Positions 56,537 through 59,176 of a stretch of DNA of 64,000 nt are shown here, piece by piece. The first letter of the stretch is position 1, and each line of letters starts with the position of its first letter. Made by a program: the position numbers and the translations under genes. The notes under the pieces were generated by a model. It was not told where the DNA came from. It did not search any database and was given only the letters and a program-made list of their open reading frames with translations. Source of the stretch: Methanolobus vulcani (GTDB taxonomy: Archaea; Halobacteriota; Methanosarcinia; Methanosarcinales; Methanosarcinaceae). The stretch lies in the NCBI RefSeq assembly GCF_900100715.1, contig NZ_FNCA01000002.1:124001-188000 (forward strand), written 5' to 3'.

Positions 56537-57643
56537 TTAAATTATTACAGATAGTATATCATCGGGTCGCGCTCTTCTCACAATCCCACTTATTATTTCC
56601 CTTGTACCTGTGAGATTGCTTGAATCCCCATTAATGATCATGATTTTTGCTTTATTTCCTTCAAGAATAGAACCGGTGTTCTCAAGTCCTAATATTGTTG
56701 CTCCCATAAGCGTACACATCATAAATACTTGTCTGTCCTCTATGCCAAAAATTTTAGCTAAAATCTCCATCTCAGAGAACATATTGACAGAATTAAGCAT
56801 TACATTATCGGTTCCCACTGCCACTTTAATTCCTTCGTCAAGCATTTTTGCAACAGGTGACATTCCAACACCAGTAATAAAATTAGATCGTGGACAGACC
56901 ACTATAGGTATGTCTTCCTCTGCAACCTTTTTTAGGTCAGACGCTTCTGCATGTGTCATGTGGATCAATATATCAGGATCAAGTGATAATGCCATGTCTA
57001 TATCACTTCGGTTATTCTCGCCGGAGTGAATAGCAAATGTTGCACCGTATTTTGCTGTCTGTTCTCTTGCAGTTTCAAGTATGCTCATATCCATGTCATT
57101 AGTACCGCTCATTCCTAGTCCATCAGCACATGCCAGTATATCATCCAGTTCTGTGCGAAGTTCTTCTGTATTTTCGGTTTTCACCGGTCTGGCAAATATT
57201 CTCCTTTCTATCTCTGATGAACTGAGAGCTTCTTTGAGATCATTGATCCCATTTACTCCACCTTCTCTGAAATCTGCAAAAGCATATGTGCCTGTATAAT
57301 TCATATCGCAGATGGAGCTTTTCATCGCTTCAATCATTTCATCATGGGGAGTACTGTTCAATATGCGATGTTTGAATCCATCAGGTGGTTTTACGAGCTG
57401 GTCAAGGTCTCTTTTTACATAGTGTCCAACGGTTTCACCAAGAACAGGATCCTTGCAGACAGAATCACCTATATGGGTGTGTGCATTAACAAAACAGGGA
57501 GCAATGATCAATTGTGAATCATTTTTTTTCTCATGCACTTCCTTGATGATGCCATCCTCTACGACAATATAACCTTCAATGACCTCTGCCTCTGGTCCGT
57601 ATATTATTTTTCCGGATATTGTTTGTTCCCATGACATGAACAT
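56537..57643 (-). CDS. Amidohydrolase (metal-dependent deaminase-like)
   Basis: 368 residues. Metal ligands as APCFVNAHTHIGD (HxH), FAIHSGENN, HMTHAEASDL and VAVGTDNVML (Asp) give the TRZ/ATZ/MTA-SAH deaminase subgroup of amidohydrolases. Substrate unassigned; an adenosine- or pterin-like deaminase is possible. Shorter than the usual ~430 residues of MTA/SAH deaminases. Start at ATG 57643 or 57637. Confidence 0.8.
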   Translation of the reverse strand: MFMSWEQTISGKIIYGPEAEVIEGYIVVEDGIIKEVHEKKNDSQLIIAPCFVNAHTHIGDSVCKDPVLGETVGHYVKRDLDQLVKPPDGFKHRILNSTPHDEMIEAMKSSICDMNYTGTYAFADFREGGVNGINDLKEALSSSEIERRIFARPVKTENTEELRTELDDILACADGLGMSGTNDMDMSILETAREQTAKYGATFAIHSGENNRSDIDMALSLDPDILIHMTHAEASDLKKVAEEDIPIVVCPRSNFITGVGMSPVAKMLDEGIKVAVGTDNVMLNSVNMFSEMEILAKIFGIEDRQVFMMCTLMGATILGLENTGSILEGNKAKIMIINGDSSNLTGTREIISGIVRRARPDDILSVII

Positions 57644-57725
57644 GCATTAATGGCTTTAATCCTTTATAAGCACTTATCAAGTATATGTTTTCAGTTTTCA
57701 TTTACGGTGCTTTTTAGACGCTATA

Positions 57726-57733
57726 TTTATATG
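57726..57733 (+). promoter_or_regulatory. TATA box of the candidate RNA gene
   Basis: TTTATATG lies about 26 bp upstream of the first base of the predicted RNA helix (57755-57757), the canonical archaeal spacing. Confidence 0.55.
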
Positions 57734-57754
57734 CCTCAGCTGTAGTAGATAAAC

Positions 57755-57942
57755 GTGCGTATTGTTAGGTCCTTGCATGAGAGCATGGCAGAGCCTATCT
57801 GTGATTGTACAGACAACCTCAATACGCTACATTGGATAGTGCGATAAAGCCTGTCACGAGGGAAACTGGGAAGGACAGCGGAAATTCCAATAGGATGATC
57901 TCCCGGAGTTAGTGCGCCAGACGACAGCATTATCCTTCTTTT
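57755..57942 (+). ncRNA. Candidate structured RNA of unknown family, ~190 nt
   Basis: Three helical domains in a row. Domain 1: GCGTATTG (57757-57764) pairs with CAATACGC (57820-57827), enclosing TAGG..CCTA topped by TGCATG-AGAG-CATgGCA, and TCTGT-ACAGA. Domain 2: ATTGGA (57831-57836) with TCCAAT (57886-57891), enclosing CTGTC/GACAG. Domain 3: AGGATGAT (57892-57899) with ATTATCCT (57929-57936), followed by TCTTTTC. A TATA box is correctly spaced upstream and no ORF is convincing on either strand. It lacks the conserved RNase P and SRP motifs I know. It could be a stand-alone sRNA or a leader/riboswitch of the DUF167 gene, with domain 3 as its terminator. Confidence 0.65.
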
Positions 57943-58000
57943 CATACGATCATTTGTTTTGTTCGTTGGATGTTAATCTGGAATATGGGGAAGTGGCACA

Positions 58001-58327
58001 ATGTCTTTTGAGGATGCTCTAAAAGAGGTAGATTCCGGGGTCATTATTGATATTGAAGTAACACCTGGCTCAAAGGTCCTTTGCGTGCCAAGCGGTTATA
58101 ATCTATGGAGAAAACGCATCGAAGTGCGTTTGTCTCAGAATGCTCAGAAAGGTAAAGCCAATGAACAACTTATCTCTGCTCTTGCAGACCTGTTTGGACT
58201 GCGTAGTTCTGATGTATCTTTTGTAAATGGGATGCATAACTCTAAGAAATCTCTTCTTTTGCAGAGTGCTGAATATTCTAATGTAGCAGCAGTTCTCAGA
58301 GACAAACTGCCTGATGATGCTGTTTAA
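58001..58327 (+). CDS. DUF167/YggU family protein
   Basis: 108 residues: VIIDIEVTPGSKVLCVPSGYN, EVRLSQNAQKGKANEQLISALADLFGL and ALADLFGLRSSDVSFVNG match the small DUF167 family of unknown function. GGGGAAGTGG precedes the ATG. No separate TATA box is seen between the RNA element and the gene, so the two may be one transcript. Confidence 0.88.
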   Translation: MSFEDALKEVDSGVIIDIEVTPGSKVLCVPSGYNLWRKRIEVRLSQNAQKGKANEQLISALADLFGLRSSDVSFVNGMHNSKKSLLLQSAEYSNVAAVLRDKLPDDAV

Positions 58328-58429
58328 TCTTAATGCTCCTGTTATGTTTTTCATATGCCTTAATACTTTCACCTCGCTTGCCTTCTCTTAATATATGCAG
58401 ATGACAATCTAGTATCTGAGGTGAAATAC

Positions 58430-58510
58430 ATGGATGAATATTTCGACAACCTGGTAGAAAGAGCATACTACTATGAACAGTTTGATCAATTCGTTCGCTA
58501 TTACAAGTAA
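58430..58510 (+). CDS. 26-residue mini-ORF with strong ribosome site
   Basis: ATG at 58430 after GAGGTG (58418-58423, 6-nt spacing), the best match to the archaeal anti-SD in this region, and an AT-rich TATA-like TTAATATATG at 58388. The product MDEYFDNLVERAYYYEQF followed by DQFVRYYK is acidic and aromatic, amphipathic-helix-like. Its last codons and stop lie in the left arm of a large hairpin. No homologue recalled; function unknown. Confidence 0.55.
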   Translation: MDEYFDNLVERAYYYEQFDQFVRYYK

Positions 58511-58592
58511 ATTTATCATGTCCTGTCGCAACGATTCCCTCCCAATCCCAAAATGTTTGCTTTCGATTGCGACAGGTCTTTACTTGTAATAG
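58498..58592. repeat. 95-nt long-arm hairpin
   Basis: Outer arms CTATTACAAGTAAA (58498-58511) and TTTACTTGTAATAG (58579-58592), 14 bp perfect; inner arms CCTGTCGCAA (58522-58531) and TTGCGACAGG (58567-58576), 10 bp perfect; 35-nt pyrimidine-rich loop. It overlaps the end of the mini-ORF and precedes the Toprim gene by 116 bp. It may be a terminator, an RNA element or a relic of a small inverted-repeat element. Confidence 0.7.
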
Positions 58593-58708
58593 TATCTCTT
58601 TTTTATATCTGTTTTGTTTCATGTTTTCAAAGGTCATTCTTTAATCAAATGAAAGGCAATTTACAATCCTGTTTGTACAATAATACTTTTAAAATCTGGA
58701 CAATTGCC

Positions 58709-59176
58709 ATGCGACCAAGAAAACCCGGCTCAAAAAGATATTTGAAAGCTCCTTTGATCGTATATGAGAATAGAATGGAGCAGATGGATAACTTACTGGA
58801 TGAGCTTCAGGATTTTGTAGATAAGGGTTCAATTATTGTCGTGGAAGGAAAAAGAGATGTAATTGCATTAAAGTCTCTTGGGTTTCATGCTGAGTTCAGA
58901 CTGGCCACTCATTATTCGATTGTAAATTTCTGCGAAGACCTTGCAAAGAACGGAAAGGAGATAGTGATTTTAACTGACTGGGATCGCAGAGGCAACATAC
59001 TTGCTGATAAACTCGTAAAGAATCTGCATTCGCTAGGGGTAAATCCGGATACAAGAATTAGGGAACTTATTGTGTCCCTGGTTCAAAAAGAGATAAAAGA
59101 TATCGAAAGTCTACCCGGGTACGTAGAAAAACTCAGAAAGATAACCAAAGGTACAGATACAACCGATTCTCTCTAA
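58709..59176 (+). CDS. Toprim-domain protein
   Basis: 155 residues. Toprim motif: the catalytic Glu in IIVVEGKRDVIALKSLG and the DxD-like ILTDWDRRGNILADKL. Similar small archaeal Toprim proteins resemble the 5S rRNA maturase RNase M5 or primase-type domains; the function is unknown. ATG 58709 lies only about 15-20 nt downstream of TTTTAAAAT (58686), implying a nearly leaderless transcript. Confidence 0.85.
   Translation: MRPRKPGSKRYLKAPLIVYENRMEQMDNLLDELQDFVDKGSIIVVEGKRDVIALKSLGFHAEFRLATHYSIVNFCEDLAKNGKEIVILTDWDRRGNILADKLVKNLHSLGVNPDTRIRELIVSLVQKEIKDIESLPGYVEKLRKITKGTDTTDSL

Follow-up and report, generated by a model that had tools for sequence, protein, structure and literature searches.

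A 64,000-nucleotide stretch of the Methanolobus vulcani genome (the window) was analysed, and on its forward strand we found a core of 179 nt, with predicted transcript ends, which is a structured and strongly conserved RNA. We consider it very probable, judging from sequence comparison, that this RNA is a two-hairpin H/ACA guide sRNA with its own TATA promoter and that it directs pseudouridylation of 23S rRNA. The class of RNA is a known one, but this RNA is missing from Rfam. In the proposed mechanism, transcription of the guide sRNA would be driven by the TATA promoter, L7Ae would bind the two kink-turns, and Cbf5-Nop10-Gar1 would bind the stems and the ACA boxes. Each internal loop would then base-pair with the 23S rRNA sequences flanking one uridine, and Cbf5 would convert this uridine to pseudouridine. 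In E. coli numbering, hairpin II would most likely act on helix 69 at position 1915, and perhaps also at 1917, and hairpin I most likely on the A-loop uridine 2554 or 2555, with 2586 in the peptidyl transferase center as a possible further target.

Folded alone, the sequence had an unremarkable energy (z = -1.0; 34 of 200 shuffles folded equally well). Only comparison with relatives can therefore decide on the structure, and the evidence for it is covariation, which was also what the initial annotation had proposed to examine. In the MAFFT alignment, which was not itself fitted to the structure, 92.1% of the cells pair and two-sided changes were observed in 27 of the 47 pairs. Since the structure was proposed after inspection of the alignment, the control in which the partner strands are slid provides the fair comparison; when the strands were slid by 1-3 columns, 32-42% of the cells paired and 5-10 pairs contained two-sided changes. 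The phylum-wide model-fitted alignment showed two-sided changes in 46 of the 47 pairs, with 488 double-changed cells, and 91.7% of its cells pair versus 34-43% in the slid versions. Covariation across relatives was strongly positive.

As read from the aligned sequences, the RNA is composed of two consecutive archaeal H/ACA hairpins, not of three domains (Table 1). The first of the three domains described in the initial annotation, closed by an 8-bp helix, was retained as hairpin I, while the rest turned out to be a single hairpin enclosed by the outer helix P2. The lower stem of hairpin I is paired in 94% of the cells, with two-sided changes in 7 of its 8 pairs in the phylum-wide alignment, and compensating variants in its upper part were found at loci L064, L069, and L056. 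A local hairpin UCUGU/ACAGA was also considered within hairpin I and was rejected, as the variants of L064, L069, L080, and L056 compensate only in CUUGCA/UGUACAG. In hairpin II, the lower stem is paired in 96-100% of the cells of the MAFFT alignment, and all 8 of its 8 pairs show two-sided changes phylum-wide. The upper part of hairpin II contains helix 8, with two-sided changes in 7 of 8 pairs in the MAFFT alignment, and helix 9, in which the pair closing the kink-turn (57876/57893) is exchanged from C-G to U-A. Helix P2 covaries inside the order and is missing from the other families of the phylum, indicating that it is an extension. A long-range pairing GUCCUU/AAGGAC was discarded, as it is not retained in other genera.

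Table 1. Features of the predicted guide RNA, all on the plus strand and numbered by window position.
Feature	Position	Strand	Details and evidence
TATA box TATTTATAT	57724..57732 (approx.)	+	TTTATAT-like; constant distance 5' of the first helix in 55/55 aligned relatives
Two-hairpin H/ACA guide RNA (predicted), core	57757..57935	+	R1/R2 model matches; covariation
Hairpin I	57757..57827	+	Lower stem 57757-57764/57820-57827, 8 bp, GCGUAUUG/CAAUACGC
Hairpin I, predicted 5' guide strand U-UAGGUC	57765..57771	+	Unpaired in the model; pocket UUAGGUC/ACAACCU
Hairpin I, upper part	57772..57812	+	Helices 2-4 of the covariation analyses; GA stem 57772-57777/57806-57812, CUUGCA/UGUACAG; apical stem-loop beyond the kink-turn
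Hairpin I, kink-turn UGA/UGUGA	57778-57780/57800-57804	+	
Hairpin I, predicted 3' guide strand ACAACCU	57813..57819	+	Complementarity to 23S rRNA
ACA box of hairpin I (U-ACA)	57829..57831	+	N-ACA right 3' of the lower stem in nearly all aligned sequences
Outer helix P2 around hairpin II	57834..57935	+	57834-57842/57927-57935, 9 bp, GGAUAGUGC/GCAUUAUCC
Hairpin II	57849..57922	+	Lower stem 57849-57857/57912-57922, GCCUGUCAC/GUGCGCCAGAC
Hairpin II, predicted 5' guide strand GAGGGAAA	57858..57865	+	GAGGG invariant in alignment A1; pocket GAGGGAAA/AGUUA
Hairpin II, upper part	57866..57906	+	GA stem 57866-57873/57899-57906, CUGGGAAG/UCUCCCGG; apical stem-loop 57880-57888
Hairpin II, kink-turn GA/GAUGA	57874-57875/57894-57898	+	
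Hairpin II, predicted 3' guide strand AGUUA	57907..57911	+	GUUAG invariant in alignment A1
ACA box of hairpin II (G-ACA)	57924..57926	+	N-ACA right 3' of the lower stem in nearly all aligned sequences

It has been known that archaeal H/ACA guides consist of a lower stem, a pocket, an upper stem, a kink-turn, and an ACA box located 14-16 nt from the pocket top (PMC7991803), and that the upper 'GA stem' has 10 layers and the lower stem 9 (PMC4652768). All of these hallmarks are present twice in series, including an upper stem of about 10 layers; counted on the alignment, the GA stem has 10 layers in hairpin II and 9-10 in hairpin I. The kink-turns, with tandem G.A and a 3-nt bulge, are conserved in both upper stems and are predicted L7Ae sites. 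The distance from the pocket to the ACA box is 15-16 nt in hairpin I. In hairpin II it is 15 nt at locus L057 and 17 nt in the window, where a 2-nt bulge is present, and the latter value exceeds the usual 14-16 nt unless these two lower-stem nucleotides bulge out. The presence of P2 after the ACA box is not usual in H/ACA RNAs and speaks against the assignment. The genome contains genes for Cbf5 (455.9 bits) and Nop10 (77 bits). When the RNA was scanned against Rfam, no family was matched at the gathering score nor at E<=10. Nor is it an RNase P RNA: it does not match RF00373, and the archaeal RNase P RNA of this genome is located elsewhere (G000:C8:269808-270190). The RNA had been described as unassigned and as a possible new sRNA; it is a free-standing non-coding RNA, but the term unassigned no longer applies, as the parts that define archaeal H/ACA guides are present in both hairpins.

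The TATA box noted ahead of the folded region lies 25-30 nt 5' of the RNA, and its spacing is constant in 55 of the 55 relatives examined; on this comparison, the RNA has a TATA promoter of its own. An ORF survey confirmed that the gap holds no supported protein gene, and a 69-aa antisense ORF (57736-57945) was rejected as a protein, as its frame falls into shifted fragments in relatives. The U-rich tract that had been taken for the end of the RNA did not hold up, since the tract after 57935 is no conserved part.

A DNA search detected the RNA in 27 of the 27 genomes of the genus, in a single copy per genome, and it was found in all 86 of 86 near-complete genomes and 14 of 14 genera of the family. 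Covariance model R1, which was built from 27 diverse sequences and also matches the 57757..57935 region in its own genome, has matches in 174 of 393 sampled genomes of the phylum; within the order, it matches 115 of 118 near-complete genomes (27/27 genera). The broader model R2, which matches 57757-57927 in the window with 144.7 bits, recovered the RNA in 27 of 40 genomes picked from those without an R1 match, so the RNA looks near-universal in this archaeal phylum by model matching. In all, most families of the phylum have it. Most genomes carry one copy; genome G186 carries two full-length copies on different contigs (L147 and L148, 113 and 111 bits).

Targets were predicted in 13 lineages by scoring all uridines (about 650) in the 23S rRNA of the same lineage for pairing on both sides of UN/UNN, with pocket strands cut by hand and sites given in E. 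coli numbering. The 5' strand of hairpin II is complementary to CCCUC in helix 69-71 and its 3' strand to UAACU in helix 69. U1915 in helix 69 ranked first to third of the about 650 uridines in 11 lineages. In a twelfth lineage (G202) the U1915 site was the top match of hairpin II, and the automatic label missed it since helix 69 reads CUAUAA there. Shuffled guides reach the U1915 score of 23.5 somewhere in 23S rRNA in 25% of trials, and this score is not significant alone. The scan gave no support for U1917, and no good conserved site was found when 16S rRNA was searched.

The two strands of hairpin I can pair with two sites. The 5' strand is complementary to GCCUA of the A-loop and to GACC after U2586, and the 3' strand to AGGUUGU of the A-loop and to GGUU before U2586. 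In 10 of the 12 lineages in which the A-loop motif was located, U2555 or U2554 ranked first and U2586 second to fifth. The A-loop score of 30 was reached by shuffled guides in 0 of 150 trials and thus stands alone, whereas the U2586 score of 20.5 was reached somewhere in 23S rRNA in 54% of trials. For U1915 and U2586, the predictions depend on the repeated appearance of the sites in lineages that are not independent of one another and on what was already known about these sites. Um2563 and Gm2564 have been reported in the A-loop of M. acetivorans, and the accessible part of that source does not mention pseudouridine there (PMC12605026); our search found no report of an A-loop pseudouridine in Methanosarcinales.

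Here, we need to consider that U2586 might be the sole target of hairpin I, as in haloarchaea, and that the match to the A-loop arose by chance. In nearly all lineages the pocket core GUC/AACC(C/U) suits U2586, and Haloarcula is known to have a pseudouridine at 2586 (PMC2584109). U2586 ranked first in G449 and G192, whose sequences resemble those of haloarchaea, and also in G237, in which the regular expression did not find the A-loop motif. However, the A-loop outscores U2586 in most lineages at a level that no shuffled guide attained, and the A. fulgidus hairpin Af4.2b guides L2601, which lies past L1970 by the U1915-to-U2554 spacing of related 23S rRNAs (PMC4652768). We therefore regard exclusive guiding of U2586 as rather unlikely.

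Known relatives were then compared with the RNA. Two haloarchaeal H/ACA hairpins with a long spacer between them have been predicted, HP1 for 2621 (2586) and HP2 for 1956 and 1958 (1915 and 1917) (PMC2584109), and for the haloarchaeal homologue of hairpin II, pairing in two registers has been suggested (PMC2584109, PMC4652768). A pattern scan of named genomes detected 31 loci with the hairpin II pocket, nearly all in haloarchaea (Haloarcula, Haladaptatus, Halonotius, and others), and 30 of the 31 have a hairpin with an AACCC pocket and an ACA box upstream at variable distance. The haloarchaeal HP1/HP2 (Hvo1/Hvo2) RNA is presumably the one named sR-h45. Both RNAs have two H/ACA hairpins in identical order with ACA boxes and kink-turns at the same positions (PMC2584109, PMC4652768), they share the hairpin II pocket GAGGGU/GUUAG, and hairpin I retains GUC/AACCC for U2586. 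They also differ. First, the present RNA lacks the long spacer, and within the order its hairpin II sits inside P2. Second, the A-loop is a better partner for its hairpin I than U2586 is. Of the haloarchaeal targets, 1915 is supported here, 2586 is secondary in methanogens, and 1917 is unsupported by the scan. In our judgement, based on the model matches within the phylum, the pockets of the named loci, and the published description, the RNA is likely to be orthologous to the haloarchaeal HP1/HP2 pair.

In A. fulgidus, Af4.3 is assigned to L1970 (equivalent to 1915) and Af4.2b to L2601, a difference of 631 (PMC4652768). The U1915-to-U2554 spacing is 627-633 in 11 of 12 measured 23S rRNAs, and the U1915-to-U2586 spacing is 665 nt in G192 and G449, equal to that in Haloarcula (2621 minus 1956). 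By this spacing, L2601 would be the A-loop uridine, and Afu-4 would have the target pair predicted here; Afu-4, compared by its published targets alone, differs in having a third hairpin, Af4.1, with a 16S target (PMC4652768). In Pab40/Pf7 of Pyrococcus, the third hairpin (Pa40.3, L2016) likewise guides the U1915 equivalent (PMC2584109, PMC4652768), but there are three adjacent hairpins and the sameness of the other two targets is not established. As the A. fulgidus difference matches the U1915-to-U2554 spacing, we infer that the A-loop was targeted first and that haloarchaea moved to U2586. We tentatively suggest that the hairpin I pocket was retargeted from A-loop 2554/2555 in methanogens to U2586 in haloarchaea through intermediates able to do both. 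If this is true, hairpin I would also be a guide for an A-loop pseudouridine, at 2554 or 2555, in methanogens.

A role outside rRNA modification, either as a non-guide sRNA regulating mRNAs or as an H/ACA-like RNA serving mainly another purpose, appears very improbable. Some archaeal H/ACA RNAs have been suggested to act on targets outside the ribosome (PMC4652768), and one pocket score by itself is not significant against shuffles; nevertheless, no other unpaired parts are as conserved as the pockets, which rank functional 23S sites first across lineages, and the homologous hairpins of haloarchaea and Archaeoglobus are tied to rRNA sites (PMC2584109, PMC4652768). With the guide assignment, a universal yet unannotated RNA of methanogens and their relatives is given a likely role in ribosome modification, and an alignment and covariance model are supplied for a family absent from Rfam. 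It predicts testable pseudouridines in the core of the ribosome, in helix 69, the A-loop, and the peptidyl transferase center. Since the preferred site of the pocket seems to differ between methanogens and haloarchaea, guide retargeting becomes testable, and Methanosarcina acetivorans and Haloferax volcanii are tractable species for this question.

A DUF167 gene lies 200-700 nt downstream of the RNA in most relatives, distant families included, and the order amidohydrolase-RNA-DUF167-Toprim (window 56537-59176) is kept across families of the phylum, for example at L142 and L150. This old gene order would suit the other proposal of the initial annotation, a cis-acting leader (attenuator or riboswitch) of DUF167, but we consider this reading very improbable, since the RNA keeps its TATA box and structure without an adjoining DUF167 (L051, L056, L057, L071, L072, L145, L165, and L170) or with DUF167 inverted and 1.7 kb away (L081), the conserved part stops before DUF167, and every invariant block is explained by H/ACA anatomy. 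We thus take the RNA to be a gene of its own. In some families, an archaeal DnaG-like gene adjoins the amidohydrolase-RNA-DUF167-Toprim block. Downstream of DUF167, a 26-codon ORF, MDEYFDNLVERAYYYEQFDQFVRYYK (58430-58510, plus strand), shows 77-100% identity across the genus at a constant position, and a long nested inverted repeat (58496-58596, -35 kcal/mol) contains the 3' end of the ORF, which has the appearance of a conserved microprotein carrying a terminal stem.
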